From: a virus
IMG/VR virus record: IMGVR_UViG_3300025684_000048
Coordinates: 1-30,147 of that record
DNA: 30,147 nt
Direction: 5' to 3' (one strand)
Below, piece after piece: positions 4,612 through 28,766 of the stretch. The translations under genes were made by a program, and so were the position numbers. The notes under the pieces are model-generated. The model searched no databases, was not told the DNA's origin, and worked only from the letters and a program-made list of their open reading frames with translations. Every line of letters begins with the position of its first letter. Positions within the stretch are counted from its first letter, which is position 1.

Positions 4612-4615
4612 AAGT

Positions 4616-7042: not shown

Positions 7043-7074
7043 TAATAATAGTAACAATTATATAATATTTTATT

Positions 7075-8277: not shown

Positions 8278-8298
8278 AAAACTTAAAAATTAAAAATT

Positions 8299-9720: not shown

Positions 9721-9729
9721 TAAAGTAAT

Positions 9730-9770: not shown

Positions 9771-9807
9771 TCTTATTATATTTATAACTTTTTAATTTTA
9801 TTATATT

Positions 9808-10638: not shown

Positions 10639-10652
10639 GGTATGCGTTTTAT

Positions 10653-10681
10653 AGCGGTTAGGCCGCTTTTAATGTGGCCTA
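10653..10681 (+). terminator. Overlapping hairpins between head and connector genes
   Basis: A short stem AGCGG (10653-10657) / CCGCT (10663-10667) is followed at once by T residues to 10670, like a small intrinsic terminator. A competing stem, TAGGCC (10659-10664) / GGCCTA (10676-10681), uses bases of the first stem and its loop, so only one can form. This is seen directly; an attenuation role is inference. Confidence 0.5.
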
Positions 10682-10708
10682 CTAGCTATAAATTAAAAAC
10701 ACAAAAAA

Positions 10709-11398: not shown

Positions 11399-11407
11399 TA
11401 AAAGAAA

Positions 11408-11989
11408 ATGGCAGATACAAGTATAACAAACGCTTTTATATCTTTAAACGATATAATCAACAACTTTATAATCTCTTTCACCGGACCTGGTAAATTAATA
11501 CCCGACTCAAAAAGAACAGAGGTTGTATTTCACGCTAGAAGATCCTTACAAGAGTTCTCTTACGAAACATTAAAAGGTCAGTTTTTAGTAGAGCTAGCTA
11601 CGACACCTGCTACTTATGACTTACCTAAAGATTATGTAGCTATGGTATCAGTACAAGCAGATGATGTAATATTTTCAGAATCTGCTGCAAATACACCTGC
11701 GGAAAATAATTATTTTATTGACTACCCTAATTTGCAGGTTATATTAAGTGGCGATAATTTTAATGACCCAAATTTTAAAATAAAATATTTATCAAATGCT
11801 TTAACAACGGATGAATCCGCAGCTATTCCAAAGCTAGCCGAGGAAGCATTATATTCTTGTATTGTTTATGCAATACTTGCAAATAGAGAAAACACAAACC
11901 CAGGTTTGTTACAAAGATTATTAATAGAAAAGACAGATAAATTAGAAAAAGCAAAATCAAGACTAGTTTTTACTAATTTTTCTTCTTAA
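11408..11989 (+). CDS. Connector/ring-like structural protein B, short form (paralogue of the gene at 12722)
   Basis: A 193-residue protein. It shares with the product of 12722 the blocks FISLNDIINNFIISF / FISVNDIVNNFIIAY, KRTEVVFHARRSLQEFS / KRTDIVFHAKRGIQEFS, LPKDYV, KYLS/KYIS with TDE, and AEEALYSCIVYAILANR / AEEALYKYIAYSILATR. The ends are helical and the middle is beta-rich, the general build of P22 gp4 / tail-tubular-A-like connector proteins, an assignment made by analogy. It lacks about 75 residues in the middle, about 20 at the N-terminus and about 14 at the C-terminus that its paralogue has, so the copies have diverged in size. Its gene starts nine bases after A, so the two are surely co-translated. 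Confidence 0.63.
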   Translation: MADTSITNAFISLNDIINNFIISFTGPGKLIPDSKRTEVVFHARRSLQEFSYETLKGQFLVELATTPATYDLPKDYVAMVSVQADDVIFSESAANTPAENNYFIDYPNLQVILSGDNFNDPNFKIKYLSNALTTDESAAIPKLAEEALYSCIVYAILANRENTNPGLLQRLLIEKTDKLEKAKSRLVFTNFSS

Positions 11990-12007
11990 TAAAAAATAAA
12001 GCGGTAT

Positions 12008-12718
12008 ATGAGCGTAAGTATAGATACAGTTTACCAAAGAGTATTAAGCATACTTAATAAAGAACAAAGAGGATATGTAACGCCGCAAGAGTTTAATCTG
12101 TTTGCTAATCAAGCGCAAATGGATATATTTGAACAATATTTTTACGATTTAAGTCAATTTAATAGATTGCCTACTGATGGTAATGTTAATGCTGATATTC
12201 CCGCTTTAATTGAAGAAAAAATTTCTTTATTTGAGAAAACAGGCACAGCGGCTTTTAATGGTACTTACCATCAATTGCCATCAGATCTTTATCGTTTAAA
12301 TAACGTTTTTATGCGCTCCTACATCAGCCAGGATATTTATGATATAACCGAGGTTGAATTAGTAAGCCCTCAATATTTTTTACAACTTAATAAATCGGAT
12401 CTCACTGCTCCTTCTTCAAAATGGCCAATATACATACAAAGCGGTAAAAAAATTGAAATATTTCCACAATCTATATCGCAAAGCGCTAGCCTTTATTATA
12501 TTAAAAAACCAGCAAAGGTAGAATGGAAATACCAAATAGTATTTGGAGAAGCTCTGTACGATTCTACATATTCTGTAGATTTTGAATTACACGAGTCTGA
12601 GGAAACGGAATTAGTTATTAAAATACTAGAGCTAGCTGGGGTGTTGGTAAAAGACTTATCAGTATATCAAATAGCTAACGGTGAAGAACAAGAAGCTATT
12701 CAACAAGAAAAAGCATAA
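12008..12718 (+). CDS. Connector/ring-like structural protein A' (second copy)
   Basis: A 236-residue protein, the second member of the A family: MSVSIDTVYQRVLSIL, then TPQEFNLFANQAQMDIFEQY, EEKISLFEKTG, a middle beta region (KWPIYIQSGKKIEIFPQSI) and a C-terminal helix DFELHESEETELVIKILELA. It looks closer to the usual single-copy form I associate with related marine phages, so A (10709) may be the derived duplicate. It presumably forms or caps a ring in the neck between the portal and the stabilization-like protein. It is followed three bases later by B'. No catalytic motif, TM or signal peptide is seen. Confidence 0.65.
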   Translation: MSVSIDTVYQRVLSILNKEQRGYVTPQEFNLFANQAQMDIFEQYFYDLSQFNRLPTDGNVNADIPALIEEKISLFEKTGTAAFNGTYHQLPSDLYRLNNVFMRSYISQDIYDITEVELVSPQYFLQLNKSDLTAPSSKWPIYIQSGKKIEIFPQSISQSASLYYIKKPAKVEWKYQIVFGEALYDSTYSVDFELHESEETELVIKILELAGVLVKDLSVYQIANGEEQEAIQQEKA

Positions 12719-12721
12719 TAT

Positions 12722-13633
12722 ATGGGTTTAATAAATCAAACAGATGAACAGTACTACTTAGGATCTGATGGCGCTTGGAATAGTTTTGATGAAAACTACG
12801 GAAGCTACCAGTTCATTAGCGTGAATGATATTGTAAATAATTTTATAATAGCTTATGTTGGTGAACAAAAAATTATAAGCGCAATAAAAAGAACCGATAT
12901 AGTATTTCACGCAAAGCGCGGTATTCAAGAGTTTAGCTTTGACTTATTGCCATCTATAAAATCTCAAGAAATTGAAATCGGACCAAATTTAAACTTTATA
13001 TTACCTAAAGACTACGTTAACTATGTTAAGCTAACCTGGGCTGATCAAAGCGGTATAGAAAGGATTATATATCCAACAAGCAAGACTAGTAATCCATTAC
13101 CAATACTTCAGGACAATAATATGGAGTATTTATTTGACGAGCAAGACAGAGAGATACTAACCGCTGATGAATCTGAAACTAGAAAAAAATTTCAATCATC
13201 GGGAGGGCATAACAAAGATTATATAGAAAATATAAATAATGAGGACTTGCTTAATGGGGCATCGTTTGGGAGAAGGTATGGATTGAACCCGGAACATTCA
13301 CAGATTAACGGTGTATTTTATATAGATCCTTTGCAGGGTATTATATATTTTGACTCCTCTATGGTTAATAGAATCGTTACATTAAAATATATTTCAGACG
13401 GTTTAGGTACCGACGAAGAAATGGTTGTGCATAAATTTGCAGAAGAAGCTTTATATAAATATATCGCTTATTCTATTTTAGCAACAAGATCCGATACTCC
13501 GGAGTACCTTGTATCTAGGTACAAAAAAGAAGCGACCGCGGCTAGGCGAAATGCTAAAATACGTTTATCTAAAATCAAAATAGAGGAAATTACACAAATA
13601 ATGCGTAATAAATCCAAAATTATAAAACACTAG
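12722..13633 (+). CDS. Connector/ring-like structural protein B', long form
   Basis: A 303-residue paralogue of the 193-residue B. The conserved core is at about 31-105 (FISVNDIVNNFIIAYVG, KRTDIVFHAKRGIQEFS, LPKDYV) and about 220-285 (LKYISDGLGTDEE, AEEALYKYIAYSILATR, then a basic helix RRNAKIRLSKIK). Between them is an insertion of about 75 residues, hydrophilic and Asn/Glu/Gly-rich (DEQDREILTADESETRKKF, SSGGHNKDYIENIN), likely an exposed loop or small domain that could contact the tail. The last residues (MRNKSKIIKH) are strongly basic. The fold is probably P22 gp4 / connector-like by context. The downstream stabilization-like gene starts four bases after its stop, which suggests a stoichiometric assembly unit. 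Confidence 0.65.
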   Translation: MGLINQTDEQYYLGSDGAWNSFDENYGSYQFISVNDIVNNFIIAYVGEQKIISAIKRTDIVFHAKRGIQEFSFDLLPSIKSQEIEIGPNLNFILPKDYVNYVKLTWADQSGIERIIYPTSKTSNPLPILQDNNMEYLFDEQDREILTADESETRKKFQSSGGHNKDYIENINNEDLLNGASFGRRYGLNPEHSQINGVFYIDPLQGIIYFDSSMVNRIVTLKYISDGLGTDEEMVVHKFAEEALYKYIAYSILATRSDTPEYLVSRYKKEATAARRNAKIRLSKIKIEEITQIMRNKSKIIKH

Positions 13634-13636
13634 AGT

Positions 13637-16600
13637 ATGCCGGAATTGATCCATACGTTTACGTCAGGTAAAATGAATAAAGACCTTGACGAACGTTTAG
13701 TACCAAATGGCGAATACAGAGACGCTGTAAATTTAGAAATCTCTACCTCTAACGGTAGCAATGTTGGTGCTTTACAAAACATAGCAGGTAATGCTTCAAA
13801 ATTTTACAGAAGCTTAAACCCTAGTACAAATACATATACATCTTGGACAAGCGGGTATATCAATTCATTAATAAACCCTATTAAAATAGGTGAAATAAAA
13901 GACGATGTTAATGAAAAAATATACTGGTTTATAGCTAGCCAAGGAATTAGTGCTATTGCTGAGTATGATCAAAAAAATGAAATTGTATCTCCTATATTAG
14001 TTGATAAAAATAATATATTAAATTTTAGTACTAATTATTTAATAACAGGTATAAATATTATAGAAGGATTACTATTTTGGACAGATGACCAAACAGAGCC
14101 TAAAGTAATAAATATTAATGATTTTAAAAATGCTAATAAAAATAGCAATTTTTTAACGCACAGTATATTTTACGGAGCTGATGCTGATTTAGCAAGAGAC
14201 TTTATAGAATCAGATATAACCGTAATAAAGCAAAATCCTACAGAACCTTTAACCTTAGAGTTATCTAAAACTAGAGCTGTAGACGCTAATGGTAACCCTG
14301 CTGTTGTAGAAGGCACCACTAGTAAAAATTTTGTTATAGTAGATCCTAATGATCCGTTAGAAAAAATAGCTGCTCCAATCGGAACGCAGTTTACAATAGA
14401 TTGGATACCAAGCCCTTATCCTTTTTACTCTGTTGGTGATGTTTTATCATTCAAAGGTGCTGCTGAAATATCAGGCTCTTCTGTTCCTGAAGAATATGTG
14501 GTAAGAGCTAAAGTTTTAAGTGTACCTTCTGGTCCAACTCAAAAATTTGTTGATATTTCTGTATTATCAGTACCTGAAACAATACAAGATACTGCAATTA
14601 CTTGGGCTGTTACACTAGAGGAAGATCCATTTTTTGAATTTAAATTTCCAAGATTTGCATATAGATACAAATATAAGGATGGATATTATTCAGCATTTTC
14701 AACTTTTTCTGAAGTAGCTTTTTTACCAGGCGACTTTGATTATGAGCCTAAAAAAGGTTATAATTTGGGTATGGTTAATCAAATGAAACAATGCGTTATT
14801 AAGGGTTTTGCTGGATCATCCACGCCTATTGACGTTGTTGAAATTGATTTATTATATAAAGAGGCAAATAATCAAACAATATATGTTGTTGATACATTTA
14901 AAAGAAATAGTAGTATATGGAATGCAAATGAATTCAACATTAAATCTGAAATAATTTCTTCTGTACTACCTTCTAATCAAATACTAAGGGTATATGATAA
15001 TGTGCCTCGTAAAGCTAAAGCTCAGGAAATTACCGCAAACAGATTGATTTATGCGAATTATTTACAAAATTTTAATTTAGTAGATAATCTAGGTAAGTCA
15101 GTTGTTCCTGCTTTAGATGTATCTATTGCTCACAATAATAATTGGGATTGTATTTACGACGAAGAGGGTAATTGCACAGGGCATCAATTCAGTACCAATG
15201 GCGAATCACTTCAGAATATACCTTACAATTCTGTAAAAACTCAAAGAACCTACCAACTAGGAGTGGTGTTCCAGGATAAATACGGTCGTCAAACACCTGT
15301 TTTTACTTCTGAATCAGCTGCAACTACATTACAAAAAAATAATTCTATAAATTACAATAGTATAACTGTTCAAGCTAAAGGCAATAAACCAAAAGAATTT
15401 ACAAACTTTAGGTATTACGTAAAGGAAACATCGAATGAATATTACAATTTAGCGATGGATAGATGGTACGAAGCTGCTGATGGCAACATATGGATAAGCT
15501 TTTCTTCATCTGATAGAAACAAAGTTGACGAACAAACATTTTTAGAATTAAAAAAGCGTCACGACTCTAGTGATGCTGTATTGGAAGCTGCTAAATATAA
15601 AATAGTAGCTATATCAAATGAAGCTCCTACATTTTTAAAAGAAACCGTATCTGTTATTGGGCAAGTTTCTGGAGCTATAGATCCTACTAGTGCCCCGGAG
15701 TTTGGATTTCAATTGTTTAGGGTTAGAAAAGATACTGTAGATAACAGTCCGGCAAAAGCTATCTTAGATCCGTCTTCTATATCAAAAACTAGATTAATAA
15801 GGTTTTTTAATAGCCAGACTAGATCAAATTATTATAAAATATCAGGAAATGAAGCAGTTACCATAGAGGGAGTGGGTTGGTACCAGATTAGCATTGAAAA
15901 TAGTTTTGGGGACGATGTAAAATGGATGTTCGATGACTCTGATGCTCTTATCCCCGGCATTTCAACGGAATTTTCTTTGAAAGAATTTGAAAACAAACCA
16001 GAATTTGAAGGTAGATTTTTTGTAAAATTATTCAAAGATGCTACCTTACAGGAATATTTATTGAATAGTGCAAACTCTTCAAATTATGCTGTTGCTCAAG
16101 GTTTTGGTTTGGGGTGGACTGACGTTTATCTTAACCGAGGCGATATATTAAGCTCCAATTGGGAACAAGGTTTTTTTATAGATAATGGAGATGTTGCAGG
16201 CGCTCCTCCTGGTAGACAAAAGAGAGGAGGAGGGTTCACGATTGGAGGACAGGACTTAACAATAGGCTTTGCGGGTATATGGCCTGAAGGAGCTGATTTT
16301 GGAGTTGGAAAAACAGTGTATACACAATACAGGCAAGCAGTTAGTATATTAGAAAGTATAGGAGGATTATTTAGATTTAAAGAAGATCCAGACGGTGTAG
16401 TATATAAAATAAAATCAGTAGAGCCAGTAGAACGCTTTAGAAATTATCAACAACAGAAACAGAGACCAAGATTTAACGATGGCTCTAACAAAAGAAAAAG
16501 ATGGTATTTAAAGGTACAGCCTGTAGACCCCGCTAATGGAACCGGTTTATTTCAAGGCCCGTCTGGGTGGTCATTCCCCGCTCCAACCGGAACATATAGA

Positions 16601-18139
16601 GGTTGGAATCAACCTGGTTCTCCTCAAATACAGTTTTTGACAACTATAACTGATGGTACTACTTTTACATCTACAAATCCAGCTATATTCGAAACAGAGC
16701 CAAAGGAGTCTGCTGAATTAGAAATATATCATTCTGCTTCAAAAATATATCCAATTTCAGAATATGGGAATGCTCATAAGCTTAATTGGTTTAATTGCTA
16801 TTCATTTGGTAACGGTGTTGAGTCCGATAGAATACGAGATGATTTCAATGCAATAACTATTGACAACGGGCCAATAGTATCAGCGGTACTAAAAGAACCT
16901 TACAATGAAGAGCGTAGGCTTACTGGTTTAATATTTTCACAGATATTTAATTCAACATCAGGTGTCAACGACTTAAATCAATTCATTCAAGCTGAGTCTA
17001 TAACAAAAGATTTAAATCCTATATATAGCTCTATACAAAAACTTCACTCTAGAGATACCAATTTAGTAACTTTGTGCGAAGACAAATGTTTACGTATACT
17101 AGCTAATAAGGACGCTTTGTTCAACGCAGATGGAAATACAAACGTTACTTCTAACAATGCTGTCCTAGGCCAGGCAATTCCTTATGTTGGTGAATTTGGT
17201 ATTAGTAAAAATCCGGAAAGTTTTGCTTCTTACGGTTATAGAGTATATTTTACTGACAAAAGCAGAGGTGTCGTAATTAGATTATCAAATGATGGAATTG
17301 AAGATATATCAAGGTATGGTATGACTACTTTCTTTGCTGACAATTTAAAGAAATCAAGTGTTACATGGGGATCATTCGACGACGACAAAAGCGCCTATAA
17401 TATTTCTTTAGACAACTTAGATACTAAATGGAGCAGCAGGTTGGATGATGGTATTATAGAGAATGGAGTTACCACAGTATTTAACCCTACATCAACCGTA
17501 GTTAGTTTTAAAGAGGATATTAACGGATGGGAAAGCAGAAAGACTTTTAGCAACGAAGGTGGTATAACGCTGAACGACAGATATTATACATTCAAAAATG
17601 GTATCATTTGGGAACATAGGCAAGAAGGGGTTGTTCAGAATAATTTTTATGGCACTCAATATGATAGCGCGGTTACATTGTTATTAAACGAAGAACCTAC
17701 TATTGTAAAGAAATATAAAACTTTAAACTACACAGGTAGTGACTCAAGAAAATATGTGTATAGCAATGCGCAATATAGTGACCTAAGCTTAGCTGAGGTA
17801 AACGCTTTACAACTACAAAATGTAACAACTGAAAATTTAGATAGTAACGGTTGGTATACAAACTATATACAAACAGACTTGCAAAGCGGTTATGTAAAGC
17901 AATTTTTAAACAAGGAGAATAAATGGTTCCAGTATATAAAAGGGGACGCTACCTACTTCAATAGCAATACGGATAATAACATTGACTCGAAAGAATTTTC
18001 CGTGCAAGGGATAGGGAGGCCTTATTTTATAGCAGCGCAGGATGTATCTGATTTCAATGTTAAAGTCTTTGCAAGCACCGAGTGTAGTATATTAAACTTT
18101 AATGTTAGAGTATATGGTGACCCGCAATGCAACCAATAA
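13637..18139 (+). CDS. Tail stabilization protein, P22 gp10 / crAss muzzle-like
   Basis: A 1500-residue structural protein. The N-terminus carries a characteristic block, TFTSGKMNKDLDERLVPNGE at about 7-26, followed by YRDAVNLEIS and GALQNIAGN. It then continues as many beta strands with WFIASQGISAIAEYD and TYQLGVVFQDKYGRQTPVF (about 535-553), a segment typical of the stabilization/'nozzle' family. Family members form the hexameric nozzle or muzzle at the end of a short tail, plugging the channel until ejection. The length is far above P22 gp10 (about 470) but close to crAss-like muzzle proteins as I recall them. The C-terminal part (ECSILNFNVRVYGDPQCNQ) is beta-rich with two Cys and may face the cell. 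Placement after four connector genes and before fibre-like genes fits. No enzymatic motif recognised. Confidence 0.68.
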   Translation: MPELIHTFTSGKMNKDLDERLVPNGEYRDAVNLEISTSNGSNVGALQNIAGNASKFYRSLNPSTNTYTSWTSGYINSLINPIKIGEIKDDVNEKIYWFIASQGISAIAEYDQKNEIVSPILVDKNNILNFSTNYLITGINIIEGLLFWTDDQTEPKVININDFKNANKNSNFLTHSIFYGADADLARDFIESDITVIKQNPTEPLTLELSKTRAVDANGNPAVVEGTTSKNFVIVDPNDPLEKIAAPIGTQFTIDWIPSPYPFYSVGDVLSFKGAAEISGSSVPEEYVVRAKVLSVPSGPTQKFVDISVLSVPETIQDTAITWAVTLEEDPFFEFKFPRFAYRYKYKDGYYSAFSTFSEVAFLPGDFDYEPKKGYNLGMVNQMKQCVIKGFAGSSTPIDVVEIDLLYKEANNQTIYVVDTFKRNSSIWNANEFNIKSEIISSVLPSNQILRVYDNVPRKAKAQEITANRLIYANYLQNFNLVDNLGKSVVPALDVSIAHNNNWDCIYDEEGNCTGHQFSTNGESLQNIPYNSVKTQRTYQLGVVFQDKYGRQTPVFTSESAATTLQKNNSINYNSITVQAKGNKPKEFTNFRYYVKETSNEYYNLAMDRWYEAADGNIWISFSSSDRNKVDEQTFLELKKRHDSSDAVLEAAKYKIVAISNEAPTFLKETVSVIGQVSGAIDPTSAPEFGFQLFRVRKDTVDNSPAKAILDPSSISKTRLIRFFNSQTRSNYYKISGNEAVTIEGVGWYQISIENSFGDDVKWMFDDSDALIPGISTEFSLKEFENKPEFEGRFFVKLFKDATLQEYLLNSANSSNYAVAQGFGLGWTDVYLNRGDILSSNWEQGFFIDNGDVAGAPPGRQKRGGGFTIGGQDLTIGFAGIWPEGADFGVGKTVYTQYRQAVSILESIGGLFRFKEDPDGVVYKIKSVEPVERFRNYQQQKQRPRFNDGSNKRKRWYLKVQPVDPANGTGLFQGPSGWSFPAPTGTYRGWNQPGSPQIQFLTTITDGTTFTSTNPAIFETEPKESAELEIYHSASKIYPISEYGNAHKLNWFNCYSFGNGVESDRIRDDFNAITIDNGPIVSAVLKEPYNEERRLTGLIFSQIFNSTSGVNDLNQFIQAESITKDLNPIYSSIQKLHSRDTNLVTLCEDKCLRILANKDALFNADGNTNVTSNNAVLGQAIPYVGEFGISKNPESFASYGYRVYFTDKSRGVVIRLSNDGIEDISRYGMTTFFADNLKKSSVTWGSFDDDKSAYNISLDNLDTKWSSRLDDGIIENGVTTVFNPTSTVVSFKEDINGWESRKTFSNEGGITLNDRYYTFKNGIIWEHRQEGVVQNNFYGTQYDSAVTLLLNEEPTIVKKYKTLNYTGSDSRKYVYSNAQYSDLSLAEVNALQLQNVTTENLDSNGWYTNYIQTDLQSGYVKQFLNKENKWFQYIKGDATYFNSNTDNNIDSKEFSVQGIGRPYFIAAQDVSDFNVKVFASTECSILNFNVRVYGDPQCNQ

Positions 18140-18177
18140 AAATAATAACAAACTAATATATATTTAAAAATATAATT

Positions 18178-19800
18178 ATGGCAACCCAATACGAGAATTT
18201 TTCTGTTTCAGAGGTGAACTTTATCCAAGCTGAAGGTAGCGATTTAAATGACTCAGGATCACACAGTATAGTAATCACTCCAAGCTCTGGTTTCACTGTT
18301 GCAGCTTCTGATTTTAGTTTAACTAGTCCTATACCTACTGGTATTACTAATTATTCTTTTGTTCAATCTGGCAGTAACGTGGTTTTAAATTTTGAATTTG
18401 CGGATAATACTATAATGCCAGGAAACAACATTGAGTTTCCTTTATGCATTCAAGGTAATGCTTCTGGTCAATTATATATAATAGATGGTAATTTTACAAT
18501 TAATACCCAAAATGCAATACCAACCAGTGAATCGGGACAATATTCCGTATCAGGTACTTTTGCAAGCACTACAAATGTTTTAACAAAGACTGTTACCGCT
18601 AATGGAGGGTTTTACTTTTTTGAGGAACCTCAAATATCATTAGCTATAGGCAATCCTAATAATTACACAATATCATCAAATAAAGTATACGATATAAACG
18701 CTAATTTAACATCTGTTACATTCAATGTATCTTACACTTTCCCAAATCAAAATATAAGCGGAGACTCAATAGTTATTCAGGCTGAGGCTATACCTATTGT
18801 TATACCTACGCAATATATAAATGCTTTTACATTGAACGGAACAAGTGGCGATGATTATGTTGCTAATGTTAATGGCGAAACATTAGTTTTAAACCTGTTT
18901 GGTGACGTTGGAGCTATATATTCAGTAGAATTAGTTGATGTCTCTTTAAACACAACGGTTTATGCTTCTAATGTAGCAATAAGCGGTAGTGGTACAGCGC
19001 AAATAGCGAACATATTAATACCAAATTACTCAGAAAATAAACATCCATACGAATTAAAAATAACAGGTGATATAAATCCTACTATTACAAATGACGGCGC
19101 TGGTGTAACAATAAGTATATCTCAGCAAGAACCTGTGTCAATTACAATTACTGCTACTAGTTCAGACCCTAATCTACTTATAGATGGAGTCCCTGATACA
19201 TTAATTCTATCACCAAACACTTCTTACGATCCTGGGTTTTTACCAAGATTAAACTTTAGCTTTAATGCAGCTTCAGCGGTTGGTTATATTATTGAAGAAA
19301 CAGTTATTTTAACAGCAAACTCGTTCAGTCCTGTAATACCTGATCTTTCAGCTGCTGGTTATACTTATTCAATAAGTAATTTAACGTCATCTTTAAATAG
19401 TAAAAATAACGTATTTACAGTATCTGGTACCATAGAAGTTTCTTCTACCGGTGGACAGCTTATTATACATACTTTAGATTTAGACACAGTGATAGATGTA
19501 ACACCTGGTTCAACTCAGTGGGATAGTGTTATTTTCTTATCTGAATGTTATTCTGCTTCCGGTATTGGTAGAACTATTACACCTATAAATATAGGAGATG
19601 TTACTGTTGGCACTAATCTAATGTGGAATAACGGCGGCAATTTAGAAACTTTACCTCAAGGTATTTACAGAATGTCAAATAGCTTAGTTAATAACCAAAC
19701 ATATAATGTTATAGAGATTTCATCTTCTGCATATTACATTGTAGTCAACTTTGGTGGAACTATAACTGATATTATTCAAGAATGCAATAACCCAACATAA
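18178..19800 (+). CDS. Beta-rich fibre-like structural protein with internal repeats
   Basis: A 540-residue protein rich in Ser, Thr, Asn, Ile and Val with few charges, as in Ig-like or beta-sandwich tail-fibre proteins. At least three divergent copies of a unit can be traced: around 37-100 (PSSGFTVAASDFSLTSP, later PGNNIEFPLCIQG), around 137-203 (TANGGFYFFEEPQISLAIG, later FPNQNISGDSIVIQAEA), and around 372-440 (LTANSFSPVIPDLSAAGYTY, later STGGQLIIHTL). The C-terminal 95 residues differ (SECYSASGIGRTITPINIGD) and could be a receptor-binding tip; they end CNNPT. It has no signal peptide. It follows the stabilization-like protein and overlaps its small partner by one base. Likely a tail fibre, appendage or head decoration; which is not decided by sequence. 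Confidence 0.55.
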   Translation: MATQYENFSVSEVNFIQAEGSDLNDSGSHSIVITPSSGFTVAASDFSLTSPIPTGITNYSFVQSGSNVVLNFEFADNTIMPGNNIEFPLCIQGNASGQLYIIDGNFTINTQNAIPTSESGQYSVSGTFASTTNVLTKTVTANGGFYFFEEPQISLAIGNPNNYTISSNKVYDINANLTSVTFNVSYTFPNQNISGDSIVIQAEAIPIVIPTQYINAFTLNGTSGDDYVANVNGETLVLNLFGDVGAIYSVELVDVSLNTTVYASNVAISGSGTAQIANILIPNYSENKHPYELKITGDINPTITNDGAGVTISISQQEPVSITITATSSDPNLLIDGVPDTLILSPNTSYDPGFLPRLNFSFNAASAVGYIIEETVILTANSFSPVIPDLSAAGYTYSISNLTSSLNSKNNVFTVSGTIEVSSTGGQLIIHTLDLDTVIDVTPGSTQWDSVIFLSECYSASGIGRTITPINIGDVTVGTNLMWNNGGNLETLPQGIYRMSNSLVNNQTYNVIEISSSAYYIVVNFGGTITDIIQECNNPT

Positions 19801-20141
19801 TGGATCAAATAACATTAAAATTTTCATATCCTATTAATACATCCGTTCAAGTAGGAGATATAACTTACTTTACTAATGCAACTAATGCATATAAAAGTAA
19901 TGATATAAAAAAGATAGGTAAGATATTAGCAATAGACCAAGCTACTAATACGTTGGAATGTGAAATTTCGCCTTCACAAGAAAGACCTGGCGCATCAAGC
20001 TTTATATTGTTTTCAAAAGATAATACCCAAAATACAGGATCTGTACTAGGGTATTATGCTAGATTACAGTTTAGAAATGATTCTACTGAGTATGCGGAAA
20101 TATTTTCAATTGGTTCTGAAGTGTTTGACAGTAGCAAATAA
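19800..20141 (+). CDS. Small structural protein, fibre-associated
   Basis: A 113-residue, probably all-beta protein: ITLKFSYPINTSVQVGDITY, KKIGKILAIDQATNTLECEI, then a C-terminal segment GYYARLQFRNDSTEYAEIFS ending SEVFDSSK. The closing pattern (GYYA..+F+NDST..AE+FS..SE.F.SSK) is one I recognise from small tail or virion proteins in marine phages, without a known role. Translation is coupled to the fibre-like gene: its ATG starts on the last base of the upstream TAA. It probably folds with, or attaches, the 540-residue protein. Confidence 0.58.
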   Translation: MDQITLKFSYPINTSVQVGDITYFTNATNAYKSNDIKKIGKILAIDQATNTLECEISPSQERPGASSFILFSKDNTQNTGSVLGYYARLQFRNDSTEYAEIFSIGSEVFDSSK

Positions 20142-20173
20142 TACGTAATAATAAATTATAAAAACTTAATAAA

Positions 20174-20791
20174 ATGATTGGACAAATAGTTGGCGGACTA
20201 ACCGGTATTGCTGGCGGCATTATAGGTAGTGGTGCAAGAAAAAGAGAACAAAGAAGAGCGCAGCAAGACTTTAATGCAAGAAAAGACCAATATGAAAACT
20301 TAGACACTTCTAACGTGTACCAAGATATGGAGAATACTATGGAGGATCTAACGGTTAATCAGCAAGCTGCAAATTTTCAGGCTCAGCAACAACAACAAGG
20401 TTTAGCAAATACTATGGCTAGTATGGGTGGTGCTGCAGGAGGATCTGGAATTGCCGCTTTAGCTCAAGCTATGGCTAATCAACAATCACAAAACTTACAA
20501 AGTGCATCTGCTGACATTGGTAGACAAGAGTCACAAAACCAAATGGCTACCGCTCAAGAAGCTGGTAGATTACAATTGTACGAAGCAAAAGGTGAATTAA
20601 TATCTAGAGACGCTGAACAAGAAAAAACAGAAACGTTATTAGGTATGGCACAGCAAGATTTAACCGCAGCTAATAAAGCAAGACAAGAAGCAACTAACTC
20701 GATTATGGGAGGCGTAGGAGGTTTAGCTACTGCTGCTGCTCAGTTTATACCAACCAAGAACCCTTTCATGAAAAAGTTGTTTGGTCAATAA
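20174..20791 (+). CDS. Internal virion / ejection protein, T7 gp14-like
   Basis: A 205-residue protein. A Gly-rich hydrophobic N-terminus (MIGQIVGGLTGIAGGIIGSG) is followed by a basic patch (ARKREQRRAQQ), a long Gln/Ala-rich helical region (about 55-165) with a Gly-rich break (MASMGGAAGGSG), and a second Gly/Ala hydrophobic stretch near the end (SIMGGVGGLATAAAQFIP). Two membrane-prone ends on a small helical protein are typical of ejection proteins such as T7 gp14 or P22 gp7, which leave the capsid and line a channel in the cell envelope. It is the first of three consecutive genes of decreasing certainty and increasing size (205, 481, 2166 residues), mirroring the T7 gp14-15-16 order. This is analogy, not homology shown by sequence. 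Confidence 0.6.
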   Translation: MIGQIVGGLTGIAGGIIGSGARKREQRRAQQDFNARKDQYENLDTSNVYQDMENTMEDLTVNQQAANFQAQQQQQGLANTMASMGGAAGGSGIAALAQAMANQQSQNLQSASADIGRQESQNQMATAQEAGRLQLYEAKGELISRDAEQEKTETLLGMAQQDLTAANKARQEATNSIMGGVGGLATAAAQFIPTKNPFMKKLFGQ

Positions 20792-20803
20792 TAACATTAT
20801 AAT

Positions 20804-22249
20804 ATGAACGTAAATTTAGTAAAAGGCCAGGCTGCATTAGCCGAAAGCAGAAATAACAACTGGAGCGAAGCTTTACAGAAAGGTATAATGGAAGGTACTC
20901 AAGCAGGTGCTTTAGTTGCCGCTCAAGAGGCTTCTGAAAAAAGCGCTATTAGCAATAAAGTAGCATCTTATATAAATTCATTAAATGAACCAGACTTAAC
21001 CAATTTAACTCCGGAGCAAAATAGCGCTGTTACAAATTTTCTAGTAGAGCAAAGAAACCAATACGCAAATATTGCTAAAGAAATATCTAAAATAGATGCG
21101 GCAGATAATCCAACCGAATACGCTTCTCTTAGGGACAAAATGAATGGCATTCGTAATTCGTTTTCAAATTTAGCAAATCAAGTAAATGCCTATAAGCAAG
21201 ATAAATTGTCTTATTTAAAAGACTTTGATGACAAAAGATTATCTAACGGTAATTCTATAGGCTCGTTATCTAAAGCTGCAAAAATATACACTAATGAAGG
21301 AGCTATGGGTGTAGGTCCAGGAGGGCAACTATCTTTTTTTGACGAAGACGCAGGAGAGTATAAGGGTTATATGGAAATTAACAAACCATTTTTAAAAGAC
21401 TTTAAATCTGCTGACTCTATTTTAAAACTAAACGAAAGCATATACAATAGCGGCCAACCTTTGTTAGGGGCTAGAAAAACCATGGTTAAATCAAAATTAA
21501 AAAACTTAATTAGCTCAGGAGGTAGAGATACCTTAGTTTCTTTAGCTGCTGATGATTTTTTAGTTGATGGTGGTTTAAACATACAGGATAAAAAGTTATT
21601 TGAACCCGGTAACGAAGACTTGCTTGAAGAAGAAGTGTTGTCAAAATATATGGATTTCTTATCTGAAACAGCAGCACAAGGATCTTTAGATAAAAAACCT
21701 TCAGGTAAAGGAGGAGGGCAAGGAAGCGGTCAGGGTGGCTTAAAAGGAGCAATTGGTGACGAAATCAAATTTGCTCAAAATTCAGTGTTACCATCTGCTT
21801 TTGACTTTGCAAATTTAGCTACCATAAATGCTGCCCCAGAACAAACAGAGGCAAAGACTAGAGCCATTGTAAATCAAATAAATAGCGTTGATCCAAAAGC
21901 AAAATCAAAGCCATACGTATCAAGAGGAGAGCTATTTAATATGTTCTACGATGCCAACAAGGATGAGTTTGATAATATAGACCAAGCTAAAAAATCTTTC
22001 AAAAAAGAATTTGGTAATACACAAATATTTAGATATAACCCTAGTCAACCAGGGCAATCTGTTCCTTTAGAAGTTAATGTAAATAACCCAAGGGAATTGT
22101 ATAATTTTTATATAAAAAATTCAGACTTAAGTTCAAAAGCTAAAAACTATTTTATAAGCAATTTAGATAGCTACATAGGATCAGGTAACGAAGAAAAACC
22201 ACAAAAAGAAAAAAGTAAACAAGGAAGCGGCGCTTACGATAATCTATAA
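20804..22249 (+). CDS. Probable internal virion / ejection protein, T7 gp15 position
   Basis: A 481-residue hydrophilic helical protein without signal peptide or TM. The N-terminal domain, about 1-295, begins with NVNLVKGQAALAESRNNNWS and a helix EALQKGIMEGTQAGALVAAQ. A Gly/Ser/Gln linker follows at about 300-318 (SGKGGGQGSGQGGLKG). The C-terminal domain, about 320-460, holds FAQNSVLPSAFDFANLATIN and SRGELFNMFYDANKDEFDNI. The end is basic and Ser/Gly-rich (KPQKEKSKQGSGAYDNL). The two-domain layout with a flexible linker and the position between a gp14-like and a giant protein suggest the middle component of an ejection complex. No enzymatic motif is visible. Its stop is five bases before the next ATG. 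Confidence 0.55.
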   Translation: MNVNLVKGQAALAESRNNNWSEALQKGIMEGTQAGALVAAQEASEKSAISNKVASYINSLNEPDLTNLTPEQNSAVTNFLVEQRNQYANIAKEISKIDAADNPTEYASLRDKMNGIRNSFSNLANQVNAYKQDKLSYLKDFDDKRLSNGNSIGSLSKAAKIYTNEGAMGVGPGGQLSFFDEDAGEYKGYMEINKPFLKDFKSADSILKLNESIYNSGQPLLGARKTMVKSKLKNLISSGGRDTLVSLAADDFLVDGGLNIQDKKLFEPGNEDLLEEEVLSKYMDFLSETAAQGSLDKKPSGKGGGQGSGQGGLKGAIGDEIKFAQNSVLPSAFDFANLATINAAPEQTEAKTRAIVNQINSVDPKAKSKPYVSRGELFNMFYDANKDEFDNIDQAKKSFKKEFGNTQIFRYNPSQPGQSVPLEVNVNNPRELYNFYIKNSDLSSKAKNYFISNLDSYIGSGNEEKPQKEKSKQGSGAYDNL

Positions 22250-22253
22250 TTAA

Positions 22254-25200
22254 ATGGAAGAATTATATAATCAACTATATAACGACGGGAAATACACAAA
22301 AACATTCGAAGATTTCAATGTTCAATTTGGATCTCCTGAAAAATCAGAAAAGTTATACCAAGCTTTAAATCAATCAGGGGACTATACTAGGTCCTTTGAT
22401 GAATTTAAAACACAGTTTAGTATACCAGCAAAGATACAAGACTCTGCGAGTGCGGATCCAACCGCGGAGTCAAGCCAAGAAGATACGGGATCCAAATCGG
22501 AAGAGCCTTTATCGGCGTGGCAATCTATTAAGAATACATTTAAAAAAGCAGGTGAACGTATCTACGATGTCGTTGAATTTTGGGGAGGTGAAGAAGGAGC
22601 TGGGTCTGGTTTAGATATAGCTACAAATTCATTTTACTCTTTATTATCAAGCCAAGAAGCTGTCGACGAATATGCAAAAAACAACCCTGGCTTTATGTCA
22701 GAAGGCTTAGGCTCGGAAGCTACTATAGAGGCTATAGAAAAATACAAAGCAGAACAAGATGAAAGTAATTTTGCTACTAAAGGGCTTGTGGCTAGCGCTA
22801 AAGATGGTGATGTAGGCGGCCTTATAGCTGGTGGTGTCGAAGCTTTAGTAAATGCTTTTTCTAGTGGCGTATATTTTTTAGGCACAGCCGGGGCAGGTGT
22901 TTTTTCTGAAGTAGCTGCTGAAAATTACATTACATATAATGAACAAAAAGCTGAAAACTTAGGCGTGTCCTTAGATGAACTTATTAGATCAGGTGAAGCA
23001 GATAATTTAGCTCCTGTTGGATTAGGTGCTGTTAGTGTTGGTCTAGAAAGATTTGGGTTTGGAAAAGTTTTAAAGGCTACTGCTGGCAAAAATATAATTA
23101 AAAACGCTAGCGCTAAACTTATATATAATAGAAAAGCTAGGAATGTTGCTAACATATTAGCCGCTGGAGGAACAGAGTTTACTACAGAAATACTACAGCA
23201 TGCCACAGATAAAATAAATGAAGAATTCGGTAGAACCGCAGGAACAGAAGAGGATGCTAAATTTGTACAAGCCACTTTTGACGCTATATTTAGTGAAGAA
23301 GGACTAGAATCCGGACTGCAAGGCTTAATAGGTGGAAGCGGAATGGTTGGCATTGGAACGAGCTATAGAGCTATGAATACAATAAGAACCACTGTAGACG
23401 GCGATTTAATTGACAAAAATTTAGAAGATTTAAGCAAGCTAAGGGTAAAATTAAATAAAGCGACTGATAAAACAGAAAAAGCCGGTATACAGAAACTAGT
23501 AGATACAAAAATATCTGAAATAGCTGACTCCGTAAGAAAAGGTAAAGATATATACGATAACCTTTCAGAAGGGCAATTAAAAGAAATAGAAAATTTAACA
23601 GATTTAGCTGATGTAGCCGCTTCTCAAGTTATAGAGCTAGATAAAAAGCTTAGAGCAGGTGAAATTGATAAAGCGGGGTATGATTTAGCTTATCAAGGCT
23701 TTAAGTCTGAATATGATGGAGTGCGGCAACAGCTTATTGACATGAACCTAGAGCAAAATATAAAAACCGCAGAGGATATTTCTAAAGAAAAAGGTTTGGA
23801 TTTAGATGTTATGACAACAGCTGGAGTTGAGGCTTTAATGAATAGTGATAAAGTAAGCGAACAAAATAGAAAAGATTATTTTGAAAATAAAGAAAAAGGC
23901 TTTGATGTATCTGCCTTCGCAATCGGTAACAAAATAGTTATAGATAAAGATATAGCTAAAAAGACAGGCTCAATTAACGCTGGGATGCATGAAGTTTTGC
24001 ACCCTGTATTTAACAAGCTTATTGGGAATGCTGAGCAGCAAGGCAAAATGGTTCGTCAATTTAGAAGAGCTATGACATCATCACAAAGAAGATTTGTTGA
24101 CGCTCAAATGAAAGAGAGGGGATATACAGGCAAAAAATACGATACGGAATATGTTAATGTGTTTTCTGATGCGCTTCGTAAAAAACAAATTAACTACGAT
24201 AAAACAACATTTGAAAAAATAGGTGATGCTGTTACAGGTATTTTTAAACCCGCAGGTTACACTAATATAGGCTTTGAATCAGGCGAAGATGTATATAATT
24301 TTGTTAAAGAATTTGACCAAAGCGCAGAACAAGGCAAATTAACAACGAAAGCAGCTGAAGCTCTTAAAGGTGTTGATTTAAGTGATGCTGGGCTACGAGA
24401 TGAATTGCAAACCTCTAAAACATTATCTCCAGAACAAACATCAGAAGTAACAAATGATATATTAGCTGTAAAACAATTAGCCGAGGAAGAGGCTGCTGTC
24501 GCTGCTAAATTTGGCAAAGAACCCATTAAAGGAGGTAAACAAGCTAGGCTAGAACAAAAAGTTGTATCAACATTGAAGCCTATCATAGACAAGGTAGTTA
24601 CAAATAGAACTCAAGCTTTATATGATCCCATAGCACCTGACGCTAAGAAAGCTGTTTCTAGGCAAGAGTTTCAAGAATCCATGCGCTCCGACCTGGAGGT
24701 AATGGTATTGAATGAGTATAATGGGTCTCAAGACATTGAAAAGTTTTTGATCAATAGAGGCTATTTAAGAGCAAACAACTTAGCTAAAAGATTAGGTATA
24801 GAATCACAAGAGGATGGTGGCATAAAATCTGATGTAACTGCGGCAAAAGACGTTGCTTCAACAGAAGACGTACAAACTATAGATAGAAGCGGCGCTGTAG
24901 AACGCGGTCAGGCAACTTTTAGTCAATTAGATTTAGTTGATGATACATTAATATCAGATACAGAAAAAGAGATCTCTAGAGAGCTTAAAACGCGTTCTGC
25001 TAAAGGAACATTATCCGAGAAAGTACCTTTAAAACTTAATAATAAAATTTATGAAACTTCTTGGTTAGAAAATTTCGTGGATAAAACATTATTTAAAAAG
25101 GTTCTAAAAAAATGGGGGACTATTGGAGAATCAAATGGTAAAACAAAAATACCAGGAGCCTACATTGACTTCCTTAATGATCAAAAGAATTTTGACATTA

Positions 25201-28200
25201 TAATGAAAGCTTTACCTGTGAAAACAATAAAGAAAAATTATTCTAAACTGTTTACATTAGAAAAGGTAGGTAGGGAGCTTACCGCAGAGGGTAATCCTAT
25301 TTTTAAAGTTGCCCCAATTGATAAAAAAACTTTTTTACAATACTTTTTAGACGGTAAGAAAACTACAATACTTGAAAGACAAAAGCAATTAGCTAGAGAA
25401 ATAATTACTCCGATAGCAAAAGAAACTTTAGCAAAATATACTACTCCTGAAAATTTATCTACATTAAAAGAAATGCAAGAGTTAGCTCCGGATGTTTCTG
25501 CTGATATTATTAATAAAATAAGCTTAGAGGAGGCTTTACGTAATTTAGAATCTCAAATAGATAGATACAAAGGGGAAGAAAAAAGTTTTGATATTATTCA
25601 GTTTAGCAAAAGCATAACGCCTGGATACAAAAAAAATATAGCATCAGCTTTAGAAACCATTGTAAATGAAGAATCTAATTCAAGCTTTAACCAAGCTGTT
25701 GCACAGGACATATTAAATAAATTAGATGATGTAAAAACGTTTAAAGATTTAGCTAACTTACTATGGAACGCTGGAGATAAAACCCTTGGGTTAGCAGCAC
25801 TTAGGGAGTACAGGGTTGAATTACTTAAATTATTAAATAATAAATTAAATTCCCTCAACGCTGATATACCGAAATTAATAATTAGCGCTGTCTATCAAAG
25901 TCATAATAAAGTATTCAAAAAGCAACAAAAGGTCATTGGATATGCTTATGGTATGGCAAAATTCTCTAGTGATTTTAAAAACGCTAAAGGTGATGTAAAA
26001 AAAGCTATTATTGTTGAAAACTTCTTAAAATTTGTTAGTAGATCTATTCGTACGCTTAAAATAGATGGAATTACAACAAATAGAGCTATATATAATGATT
26101 TGCTTGTACCTATCATGGGAGATCCTACTAAGTATGGGTTTACGCTTACCGAAGAAAAAGTAGGTAATAGAATACAATCTTACATAAACAAAGACGGCAA
26201 AAGACTTTATGGATTAGCTGATATTACAATGATAAAATCTAATTTTGAAAACTCCAGAAGCACAATTAACAAAGAAGCTATAGAAGTTAGAAAATGGTTA
26301 ATGAACGAAGCTAAAGAAGCTATTAAAAACAAAGATATAGATGCTTTTATAGGTTTTTTATCTTTATTATCCGCGGATCAAAGAGGGGTTATACGTAAAA
26401 TGAGTAGCGCAGGGTTTAGTTTTGCAAATTTAATAGTCAAGGACACTGTATTAGAACACGAGACAGAAGCTTTAGATATATTTAATGCTTGGAAATCTTT
26501 TGCTCAAAGAAAACTAAGTGAAGCAAAATTAATAAAATTCTTAAAAGAATCTAAAGTAAATTTAGTTTCTAAAGAATTTGACGGAATATTAAAAGAAGCT
26601 AGGAAAAAAGTTTCAGGAGCAAAAAACATAGGCAAAGCTAGATACGAAAGTATTGCTCCAAAAACATACATTGCAAATCTTAAGAAAAAAGGACTTATAC
26701 TACAGCCATCTAAGAGCCAAGGTACTGAAGTAATGCAAGCTTCTAAAACTCTTAATAAAGATTTTAACAATATAATAGAGAACGAAACTAAAATAAGCGG
26801 TAAATCTACTATATCAGAGGCAAAAAGCAGAATGCTTGGTAAAAATAAAGGAGGTTGGAGGTTCTTTGTGCCGCCATCAGCGGATGACTTTGCTGGATTA
26901 ATGTATAGATTACTTGGCAAAGGTGATACTGGTAATAAGAACGCTAAATGGTTTAAAGATAATTTATTTGATCCTTATGGAAAAGGTATTAGAGATTTTG
27001 AATCTTACAAGCAGCAAACAGTACAGTCTTTTAGAAACTTAAAGAAAAGCATAAAGAACGTTCCAAAAAACCTTGGTAAAACAAATGAAACAGGGTTTAC
27101 CAACGATGTAGCTGTCAGAGTATACCTTTGGAACAAAAAAGGAATTGACATACCAGGGTTAGACAAAAATGATATAAAAGAATTAATCGGTATAGTAAAT
27201 AATAACCAAGACTTTAAAAACTTTGCAGATCAGGTTGAAAATTTATTACAAGGTTATCCAGAACCCGAAAATAATTGGTTAGCCGGTACTATTACAACAG
27301 ATGTTATTAACAAGATTAATACATCGAAAAGAGAAGAATTTTTACAGGAGTGGCAAGCTAATGCTGATGAAGTATTTTCTAAAGAGAATATTAATAAACT
27401 TAGAGCTGCTTTTGGAGAAGACTATGTAGAGGCTTTAGAAGATATGCTTTATAGAATGAAGACTGGTAGAAACCGACCGTCTGGCTCAAATAAATTAACA
27501 AATCAATTTATGAATTGGGTTAATGATTCTGTTGGTACTATTATGTTCTTTAACACTAGATCAGCATTATTACAAACGTTATCTATAGCTAACTTTATAA
27601 ACTGGGGTGATAATAATCCTATAAATGCAGCTAAAGCTTTCGCTAATCAAAAACAATTTTGGGGCGACTTTACTATGCTATTTAACTCAGATTTCCTAAA
27701 ACAAAGAAGATCAGGATTAAAAACTGATATTAACGCTGATGATATTGCAAGCGCAGCGGAAACATCAACGAATAAGGCCAAAGCAGCATTGTCATCTATA
27801 TTAAAAATGGGATTCTTACCAACACAAATAGCGGATAGTTTTGCTATTGCAATGGGTGGAGCTTCGTTCTTAAGAAATAGAATAGATAGTTATATTAAAG
27901 AGGGATTGTCTCAACAAGAAGCAGAAAGCAAAGCATTTTTAGATTTTCAAGAAGTAGCTGAAGAAACTCAGCAATCATCAAGACCTGATAGAATATCACA
28001 ACAACAAGCGAGTCCCTTAGGTCGTATTATATTAGCTTTTGCAAATACCCCTATGCAGTATATGCGTTTGACTAAAAAAGCTATACTAGACATAAAAAAC
28101 AAAAGGGGTGATTTAAAAACAAACATATCTAAAATAGTTTACTATACCGCAATACAAAACATAATATTTGCTAGTTTACAAGCAGCTTTATTTGCTTCAT

Positions 28201-28754
28201 TATTCGATGATGAAGATGAAGAAGCTATTGATAATAAGCAAACAATGGTAGCTAATTCAATGCTGGACACCCTGCTAAGAGGTATGGGTATTGGAGGTGC
28301 GGTAGTGTCTACAGTAAAAAACATTGGATTAGAAATTGATAAGCAGTCTAAAAAACCTAGACCTGATTATACACAAGCAGCTATTCGATCTGTAGATTTA
28401 TCTCCCCCGTTGTCATCAAAGCTTAGAAAGTTAATGAGTGCAGGTAGAGCGTTTAGTTATAAAAACGTTAGAGATAAAATGCAAGGATTTTCATTAGAAA
28501 ACCCAGCGTTTTATGCCGGAGGGCAGGTTGTATCTGCTGTTACTAATGTACCGCTAGACAGAGTTATTAAAAAAGCTGACAACATAAGATTAGCTATGGA
28601 CAACGACACAAAGCTTTGGCAAAAAATCGCGCTAGCTTTAGGATATAGCACTTGGGATGTAGGTATGGTACAAAAAGAAAAAGCTAAAGGCAAAAGTGGT
28701 TTTGGAAAAGTACCGACGTGGAAAAAAACAGAATGGAAAAAAGTTAAATGGTAA
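22254..28754 (+). CDS. Giant internal virion / polyvalent ejection protein with HExxH motif
   Basis: A 2166-residue protein, the largest here and likely carried in the virion and ejected with DNA. The N-terminus has two copies of a 23-residue unit (3-25 and 32-54; LY..L...G.YT..F..F...F). A Gly/Ala-rich hydrophobic patch lies at about 185-225. An HExxH zinc-protease motif, AGMHEVLHPVF (His579, Glu580, His583), has a possible third ligand Glu632 in YDTEYVNVFSDA, a spacing allowed for gluzincins. A long helical middle is followed by a C-terminal region (about 1735-2000) containing FFNTRSALLQTLSIANFINW, SRPDRISQQQASPLGRIIL, FANTPMQYMRLTKKA, and a TM-like AIQNIIFASLQAALFASLF before an acidic run. 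That C-terminal region is a pattern I recognise in giant 'polyvalent' proteins of marine Bacteroidota phages. No RNA polymerase or methylase motif was found. The T7 gp16 role is by analogy. Confidence 0.62.
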   Translation: MEELYNQLYNDGKYTKTFEDFNVQFGSPEKSEKLYQALNQSGDYTRSFDEFKTQFSIPAKIQDSASADPTAESSQEDTGSKSEEPLSAWQSIKNTFKKAGERIYDVVEFWGGEEGAGSGLDIATNSFYSLLSSQEAVDEYAKNNPGFMSEGLGSEATIEAIEKYKAEQDESNFATKGLVASAKDGDVGGLIAGGVEALVNAFSSGVYFLGTAGAGVFSEVAAENYITYNEQKAENLGVSLDELIRSGEADNLAPVGLGAVSVGLERFGFGKVLKATAGKNIIKNASAKLIYNRKARNVANILAAGGTEFTTEILQHATDKINEEFGRTAGTEEDAKFVQATFDAIFSEEGLESGLQGLIGGSGMVGIGTSYRAMNTIRTTVDGDLIDKNLEDLSKLRVKLNKATDKTEKAGIQKLVDTKISEIADSVRKGKDIYDNLSEGQLKEIENLTDLADVAASQVIELDKKLRAGEIDKAGYDLAYQGFKSEYDGVRQQLIDMNLEQNIKTAEDISKEKGLDLDVMTTAGVEALMNSDKVSEQNRKDYFENKEKGFDVSAFAIGNKIVIDKDIAKKTGSINAGMHEVLHPVFNKLIGNAEQQGKMVRQFRRAMTSSQRRFVDAQMKERGYTGKKYDTEYVNVFSDALRKKQINYDKTTFEKIGDAVTGIFKPAGYTNIGFESGEDVYNFVKEFDQSAEQGKLTTKAAEALKGVDLSDAGLRDELQTSKTLSPEQTSEVTNDILAVKQLAEEEAAVAAKFGKEPIKGGKQARLEQKVVSTLKPIIDKVVTNRTQALYDPIAPDAKKAVSRQEFQESMRSDLEVMVLNEYNGSQDIEKFLINRGYLRANNLAKRLGIESQEDGGIKSDVTAAKDVASTEDVQTIDRSGAVERGQATFSQLDLVDDTLISDTEKEISRELKTRSAKGTLSEKVPLKLNNKIYETSWLENFVDKTLFKKVLKKWGTIGESNGKTKIPGAYIDFLNDQKNFDIIMKALPVKTIKKNYSKLFTLEKVGRELTAEGNPIFKVAPIDKKTFLQYFLDGKKTTILERQKQLAREIITPIAKETLAKYTTPENLSTLKEMQELAPDVSADIINKISLEEALRNLESQIDRYKGEEKSFDIIQFSKSITPGYKKNIASALETIVNEESNSSFNQAVAQDILNKLDDVKTFKDLANLLWNAGDKTLGLAALREYRVELLKLLNNKLNSLNADIPKLIISAVYQSHNKVFKKQQKVIGYAYGMAKFSSDFKNAKGDVKKAIIVENFLKFVSRSIRTLKIDGITTNRAIYNDLLVPIMGDPTKYGFTLTEEKVGNRIQSYINKDGKRLYGLADITMIKSNFENSRSTINKEAIEVRKWLMNEAKEAIKNKDIDAFIGFLSLLSADQRGVIRKMSSAGFSFANLIVKDTVLEHETEALDIFNAWKSFAQRKLSEAKLIKFLKESKVNLVSKEFDGILKEARKKVSGAKNIGKARYESIAPKTYIANLKKKGLILQPSKSQGTEVMQASKTLNKDFNNIIENETKISGKSTISEAKSRMLGKNKGGWRFFVPPSADDFAGLMYRLLGKGDTGNKNAKWFKDNLFDPYGKGIRDFESYKQQTVQSFRNLKKSIKNVPKNLGKTNETGFTNDVAVRVYLWNKKGIDIPGLDKNDIKELIGIVNNNQDFKNFADQVENLLQGYPEPENNWLAGTITTDVINKINTSKREEFLQEWQANADEVFSKENINKLRAAFGEDYVEALEDMLYRMKTGRNRPSGSNKLTNQFMNWVNDSVGTIMFFNTRSALLQTLSIANFINWGDNNPINAAKAFANQKQFWGDFTMLFNSDFLKQRRSGLKTDINADDIASAAETSTNKAKAALSSILKMGFLPTQIADSFAIAMGGASFLRNRIDSYIKEGLSQQEAESKAFLDFQEVAEETQQSSRPDRISQQQASPLGRIILAFANTPMQYMRLTKKAILDIKNKRGDLKTNISKIVYYTAIQNIIFASLQAALFASLFDDEDEEAIDNKQTMVANSMLDTLLRGMGIGGAVVSTVKNIGLEIDKQSKKPRPDYTQAAIRSVDLSPPLSSKLRKLMSAGRAFSYKNVRDKMQGFSLENPAFYAGGQVVSAVTNVPLDRVIKKADNIRLAMDNDTKLWQKIALALGYSTWDVGMVQKEKAKGKSGFGKVPTWKKTEWKKVKW

Positions 28755-28766
28755 AATTATTATAAT

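Follow-up and report, generated by a model that had tools for sequence, protein, structure and literature searches.

Does the HExxH motif in the giant open reading frame (ORF) of this virus belong to a working metallopeptidase and, if so, what might that peptidase cut? The window, by which we mean the whole stretch of DNA that was analysed, is a single virus record of 30,147 bases. A preliminary description of it had pointed out an exact HExxH in the peptide AGMHEVLHPVF (residues 576-586 of the giant ORF, holding H579, E580 and H583), together with Glu632 as a fitting partner. It had proposed a zinc protease that travels in the virion and processes capsid partners, cuts envelope proteins or disables a host defence protein. 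The positions of both elements were confirmed in the translation of the giant ORF: E632 sits in KKYDTEYVNVFSDA (= YDTEYVNVFSDA), and the stretch 23988-24149 comprises precisely the codons from H579 through E632. The features that we refer to are collected in Table 1.

Table 1. Position in the window of the features discussed in the text
Feature	Position	Strand	Remark
Structural module: terminase large subunit, portal, capsid/virion and tail proteins	2398..22249	+
Giant ORF, 2166 aa, probable virion-carried polyvalent protein	22254..28754	+	ends the structural module
Zincin-like metallopeptidase domain, residues 490-712	23721..24389	+	construct that was modelled
HExxH, H579-E580-V-L-H583	23988..24002	+	H, E and H identical in 95/95 rows
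Glu632, predicted third zinc ligand	24147..24149	+	on the second C-terminal helix of the core
Tag copy 1, QTSKT (residues 719-723)	24408..24422	+	just after the peptidase domain
Tag copy 2, QFSKS (residues 1116-1120)	25599..25613	+
Tag copy 3, QASKT (residues 1495-1499)	26736..26750	+	where the conserved C-terminal module begins
Most conserved, all-helical C-terminal module, residues 1494-2140	26733..28673	+

The HExxH motif and its domain

The giant ORF has just 5 histidines in its 2166 residues, and any HExxH arises in 9 of 10,000 shuffles of these residues. Since the window also holds a second, chance-looking HExxH (HELLH, in an ORF of 79 amino acids at 1141-1380), the motif alone is insufficient as proof of a protease.

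To judge conservation we used an alignment of the window and 94 loci, that is, 95 rows with 82 distinct domain sequences; some of the 94 loci lie on shared contigs. The pattern V[YFI][NE]F[ILV]K[EDR][YF][ND], which does not contain the HExxH, recruited 81 of the 94 loci (80 viral loci and one contig of a Flavobacteriaceae MAG), and the remaining 13 were recruited through peptides elsewhere in the giant protein. All four residues, H579, E580, H583 and E632, are identical in all 95 rows, while the identity to the window falls to about 14%. The 13 loci found through other peptides are IMG/VR loci whose proteins are related to the giant over its whole length, and each of them keeps the Glu of the E..xxFSD segment as well as the HExxH. 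The loss of these residues in close homologues had been named beforehand as an argument against the protease; neither in the 13 whole-protein relatives nor in the 95-row alignment is any of them lost.

A second set, recruited solely through the C-terminal module, comprises 124 distinct full-length giant ORFs. An HExxH inside the domain is found in 106 of these, 13 are without any, and 5 are undetermined. HExxH was the selection criterion for the 106, and the independent test is that of the Glu alone, which is kept in 106 of 106. It follows the second His at a distance of 45 to 96 residues, with a median of 55. In these 106 giants, H, E, H and E are the only columns of the domain with an identity of at least 90%.

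Some giants carry a second HExxH at the extreme C-terminus (for example IAHEKKHQEDMKSG..LPWEKAANNAEK), which may be another zincin and which is absent from the window protein. It is seen near the C-terminus in L006-L010, L012 and L011, and also in L149, L154, L156, L163, L170 and L172. The giant of L203 has HEMVGH at residue 1011, an HExxxH form like a variant mentioned in a passage of Iyer et al. (PMC5512222).

The AlphaFold model of residues 490-712, calculated from an alignment of 74 sequences, has a pLDDT of 85.9 and a pTM of 0.82. Its elements follow each other as helix 2-24, strands 27-31, 65-68 and 71-75, the HExxH helix 87-100, further helices and helix 137-153, on which residue E143 of the model (= E632) lies. 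This confident model predicts a zincin core, made of an N-terminal helix, three strands, the HExxH helix and the Glu helix, with Glu632 as the likely third zinc ligand. Structure prediction had been suggested as a check in the preliminary description, and in the model the HExxH and Glu632 do fall on the two expected helices.

When the domain model was searched against the PDB with Foldseek, there was no match at E <= 0.001. We re-aligned the top 350 Foldseek chains using VIA-align, and the best matches were lethal factor domain I (Z 5.9), Certhrax (5.5), PPEP-3 (4.8), PPEP-2 (3.7) and YbeY (3.5). The top rows are mostly zincin folds, with every Z below 8, and absence from these rows excludes no zincin family. 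PPEP and lethal factor domain I (clan of zincins), which are among the top structural alignments with Z 3.7-5.9, are 8-16% identical to the window domain and are secreted bacterial proteins, not phage virion proteins. Among viral models, the second Foldseek rank is taken by a structural protein of the Flavobacterium phage elemoC_14-1A (E 4.4e-3); this sister of elemoA matches the window domain by fold.

With Pfam and PHROGs, nothing on the giant ORF rose above the cut-off, and the window protein holds no Pfam domain. Pfam searches with 14 domain sequences gave nothing useful and no match to MPTase-PolyVal; those with 20 giant relatives gave single-member matches only, including a P-loop kinase/zeta-toxin-like domain in one of the 20 and a weak LPD18. 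In INPHARED, tblastn found no match to the domain and one weak match to the C-terminal module, and the search of PDB sequences with the domain profile returned three chance-like matches only. At the curated cut-off of PF18818 (MPTase-PolyVal), none of 22 records matches. We also compared our 74 sequences with 30 PF18818 members taken from other genomes, using hhalign: the probability was 5% and the HExxH stretch alone was aligned, in register, with a score above those of 40 column shuffles and one reversed profile. Membership in PF18818 by sequence is thus unsupported beyond the HExxH stretch.

Passages of Iyer et al. (2017; PMC5512222) describe zincin-like peptidases as the domain met most often in polyvalent proteins. 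These peptidases have a core of an N-terminal helix, a three-stranded sheet, the HExxH helix and the Glu helix, with a variable insert before the last. The window domain has the same core and likewise lies in a giant multidomain phage protein, with a similar proposed role in processing; unlike that class, it is unmatched by the Pfam model. The large multidomain setting with swappable domains is seen here too, as homology blocks are exchanged between giant relatives. By its architecture the window domain resembles a polyvalent-protein peptidase, but by sequence it does not qualify for PF18818. The domain is of a known kind, while its family is new, widespread in uncultured marine phages and missed by the Pfam and PHROGs profiles. 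With four residues identical in 95 of 95 rows and a predicted zincin core, the zinc-protease-like domain of the preliminary description holds up, and we regard it as almost certain that the HExxH of the giant ORF belongs to a genuine zincin-type metallopeptidase domain.

Genome context and probable carriage in the virion

Next, we consider whether such a protease could travel in the virion, as had been proposed. The genes of the window are ordered as GroES-like, terminase, portal, capsid and tail genes, with the giant ORF last, and the order of the structural genes is that of Flavobacterium phage elemoA and Cellulophaga phage phi18:3. The last place of the giant ORF fits an ejected virion protein of flavobacterial podoviruses. 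The terminase matches 87 phage records, 68 of Flavobacterium, 15 of Cellulophaga, 2 of Tenacibaculum, 1 of Maribacter and 1 other. Proteins of the window match the portal, gp104, gp112, gp113, gp114 and gp115 of phi18:3, all annotated from MS/MS. The giant ORF has the position of phi18:3 gp123, which the record annotates as a virion protein by MS/MS. Because of this synteny and of the annotation of gp123, carriage in the virion is suggested, and by analogy the giant protein is probably part of the particle. Neither phi18:3 gp123 nor phi38:1 gp101, each the last structural gene at the same genomic position, has an HExxH or detectable sequence homology to the window protein, so that virion carriage does not need the peptidase.

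An HExxH is present in the giant genes of elemoA, Gundel_1 and MW202828.1. The giant of elemoA (gp21, 3694 aa) lies at the same place in the structural module and matches the profile of the window domain. That of MW202828.1 (3859 aa), also at the same place, has two HExxH, both HEFGH and unmatched by the window profile. In Tenacibaculum phage Gundel_1 the giant (gp074, 2482 aa) lies directly upstream of the terminase gene and shares part of the C-terminal module; its single HExxH, again HEFGH, is unmatched by the profile as well.

A study of a crassvirus is of interest here, as it reports that virions of this Bacteroidota phage store large cargo proteins and, in the part that concerns us, proposes that the cargo is ejected partly unfolded. 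The strings "cleav", "proteoly" and "protease" have zero occurrences in its main text.

Some other features of the window may be recorded. The tail module contains a tandem duplication, in which 10709-11398 pairs with 12008-12718 (38% identity) and 11408-11989 with 12722-13633 (30%); elemoA and phi18:3 have one counterpart of each kind. Downstream of the giant ORF, at 28755-29211, there are small basic coding stretches with KDSCYREAKAKYDVFPSAYASGYIAKCRK and RWFKEEWTDEKGNECG..CRPSKRISEDTVKTWGEMSSAEK segments. A fragment of a ribonucleotide reductase large subunit lies on the minus strand at the contig end (29359-30147).

A motif at the module borders

Within the giant protein a short motif recurs, which we call the tag. 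Its strict form, [QKR][FLMYAT]S[KR][ST], was defined after inspecting the window and its close relatives, and the sets in which it was counted overlap in contigs. In 56 nonredundant giants (127,750 aa) the strict tag occurs 79 times, compared with a mean of 8.7 and a maximum of 18 in 300 shuffles, an enrichment of about 9-fold. In another 295 ORFs from the same loci, each 250 aa or longer (168,301 aa in all), it occurs 10 times, which is near background, and in the 18 other window ORFs that were scanned (6938 aa) there is none. The giants of elemoA, Gundel_1 and MW202828.1 have no strict tags, unlike the window protein; phi18:3 gp123 has one and phi38:1 gp101 none.

The placement of the tags can be seen from comparisons with single relatives. 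The window protein is homologous to that of L021 in residues 1-724, 863-1121 and 1494-2140, to that of L024 in 1-724, 764-1489 and 1494-2163, and to that of L026 in 1-724, 764-1133 and 1494-1871. In all three, homology ends at residue 724, beside tag copy 1, and with L021 it also ends at residue 1121, beside copy 2. Copy 3 lies on the low-confidence and probably flexible edge of the model of the C-terminal module; the pLDDT of this model, 63.8, stands for low to middling confidence.

The same tendency was quantified in 133 giants. There, 69 of 147 tags are no more than 12 aa away from a homology breakpoint, whereas circular shifts gave a mean of 16.2 and a maximum of 29 in 1000; for other S[KR] sites the number is 297 of 2134. 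If only the middle region is considered, 61 of 120 tags are near a breakpoint versus 243 of 857 other S[KR] sites (Fisher 1.6e-6, a value that ignores relatedness).

A HAD-like segment with DxDxT is inserted in 52 giant relatives, although Pfam supports HAD only weakly (E 0.025, under the cut-off). A relaxed tag stands 1-45 aa upstream of the DxDxT in 28 of the 52, compared with 10% of random middle windows. In one giant (L057:10986-12113) a kinase/zeta-toxin-like P-loop domain (AAA_33, E 1.4e-10) lies inside the HAD-like module, and the two look like a kinase-phosphatase module. A border motif of this kind was not found in the literature that we searched, and none recurs in the passages of PMC5512222 on these proteins.

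Does the tag go together with the peptidase? In the second set, 68 of the 106 intact-zincin giants contain a strict tag, and none of the 11 zincin-less ones does (Fisher 3.4e-5). For this count, L292 and L325 were dropped from the zincin-less giants as short ORFs (575 and 706 aa), and L172, L203, L207, L331 and L352 were dropped as undetermined. The zincin state changes 8 times on the tree; in 7 independent pairs, the tag changes in the same direction in 4.8 on average and in the opposite direction never (median sign-test p 0.06). The contrast is weaker for the relaxed tag (80 of 106 versus 4 of 11, p 0.011), and for [QK]FS[KR] there was no contrast by zincin state in the first C-terminal set of 67 giants (p 0.69). 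Within that first set, L202 is zincin-bearing by profile, but having no HExxH it was counted as zincin-less in the contrast. The intact-zincin giants without a strict tag are clustered on the tree. In view of the weaker contrasts, the post hoc definition of the tag and the shared contigs, we grade the link between tag and zincin as suggestive.

Degenerate copies of the domain are also found. In L187 and L282 the domain is kept with its first His changed to Glu (EELFH), possibly a pseudoenzyme, and relaxed tags are kept with it. L201 and L202 have only the C-terminal half of the peptidase domain.

What the peptidase may cut

While the zincin domain with Glu632 and its probable carriage in the virion were supported, the targets named in the preliminary description were not. 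As regards capsid partners, the absence of the strict tag from all 18 other window ORFs speaks against cutting at the same motif, and nothing was found that points to envelope or host-defence proteins. The only target-like signal that we found is the tag at module borders inside the giant protein itself.

The explanation that we favour is a polyprotein that processes itself. The giant ORF would encode a virion-carried polyvalent protein, a long chain built from several modules and delivered into the host together with the phage DNA. An active zincin-like metallopeptidase would occupy residues 490-712, approximately; H579, H583 and E632 would bind zinc, and E580 would activate the water. It would process the giant protein, in cis or between neighbouring copies, at tags of the form [Q/K]-[F/L/A/T]-S-[K/R]-[S/T], which mark the borders between modules at residues 719, 1116 and 1495. 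The cuts would separate the N-terminal part, which holds the peptidase, from two middle modules and from the conserved helical C-terminal module, and would be made while the protein is still in the head, ahead of ejection, or once it is inside the host. Passages of Iyer et al. (PMC5512222) propose autoproteolysis for such domains in general, be it prior to packaging, within the head or following injection.

Self-processing of the giant protein in general has, in our opinion, an even chance of being right. The enrichment and placement of the tags suggest them as cut sites, and the complete model with its cut sites is offered somewhat more tentatively. There are points against self-processing. 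The tags may be no more than markers of linkers; 38 of the 106 intact-zincin giants have no strict tag; and according to a passage of PMC5512222 the N4 virion RNA polymerase, a protein related in kind, is packaged without processing.

If the tags are linkers only, the domain could be a true zincin that acts in the host cell as an effector after ejection, a reading that we consider rather unlikely. It agrees with the conservation of the domain and with the predicted fold, and action on host proteins is also among the options listed in the passages of Iyer et al. (PMC5512222). Moreover, some relatives have lost the domain or carry a broken one: 11 of the 124 giants are without HExxH, and two of these 11 keep the domain with EELFH. 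This would be easier to understand for an accessory effector than for an assembly protease that the phage cannot do without. On the other hand, an effector leaves it unexplained why the strict tag is missing in all 11 zincin-less giants and why tags are located at homology breakpoints, and no result suggests a host target.

Other phages have prohead proteases that recognise short motifs, and a separate head-maturation protease from another part of the genome might cut the giant at the tags while the zincin has another role. The tagged sites at module borders would be in keeping with this, and there is room for such an enzyme, as several structural ORFs are without an assigned function and the rest of the genome lies outside the window. 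A capsid protease, however, should also have capsid or scaffold proteins among its substrates, and the strict tag is absent from the other 18 window ORFs and near background in the 295 ORFs from related loci; besides, the presence of the tag goes with the zincin. We therefore disfavour a prohead protease as the cutter, for want of the strict tag in other structural ORFs, and consider this reading improbable.

It is more improbable yet that the fold is zincin-like but serves as a structural or inactive remnant in the window phage. The degenerate copies in L187 and L282 (EELFH) and in L201 and L202 (C-terminal half) show that such remnants occur in relatives, but the window protein has kept all four catalytic residues, and no other positions of the domain are as constant as these. 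A chance HExxH in an unrelated domain, for which one could cite the chance-looking motif at 1141-1380 and the lack of a significant PDB or Pfam match, is set aside because all four residues are conserved in 95 of 95 highly diverged rows and the core is predicted as well, so that this reading is in practice refuted.

What would self-processing at the tags mean? So far the substrates of polyvalent-protein zincin peptidases are mostly guesses. Relative to the general autoproteolysis proposal in the passages of Iyer et al. (PMC5512222), what is new here is a candidate recognition motif with positions. Even if the tags are linkers only, there remains a new and widespread peptidase family of uncultured marine phages. 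If they are cut sites, there is a concrete substrate motif for this peptidase family, and this class of peptidases would have, in the tag, its first proposed recognition motif. It is possible, although we would not yet call it probable, that a resident zinc peptidase recognises a conserved tag, [Q/K][F/L]S[K/R][S/T], that brackets every exchangeable module of a virion polyprotein. With similar reserve we suggest that phages may swap effector modules (HAD-like phosphatase, kinase and others) between the tags, each of which would be freed on delivery. If this is true, the module borders of unannotated giant proteins would become readable from sequence alone, and there would be a direct test of how several effectors are packaged as one polypeptide.
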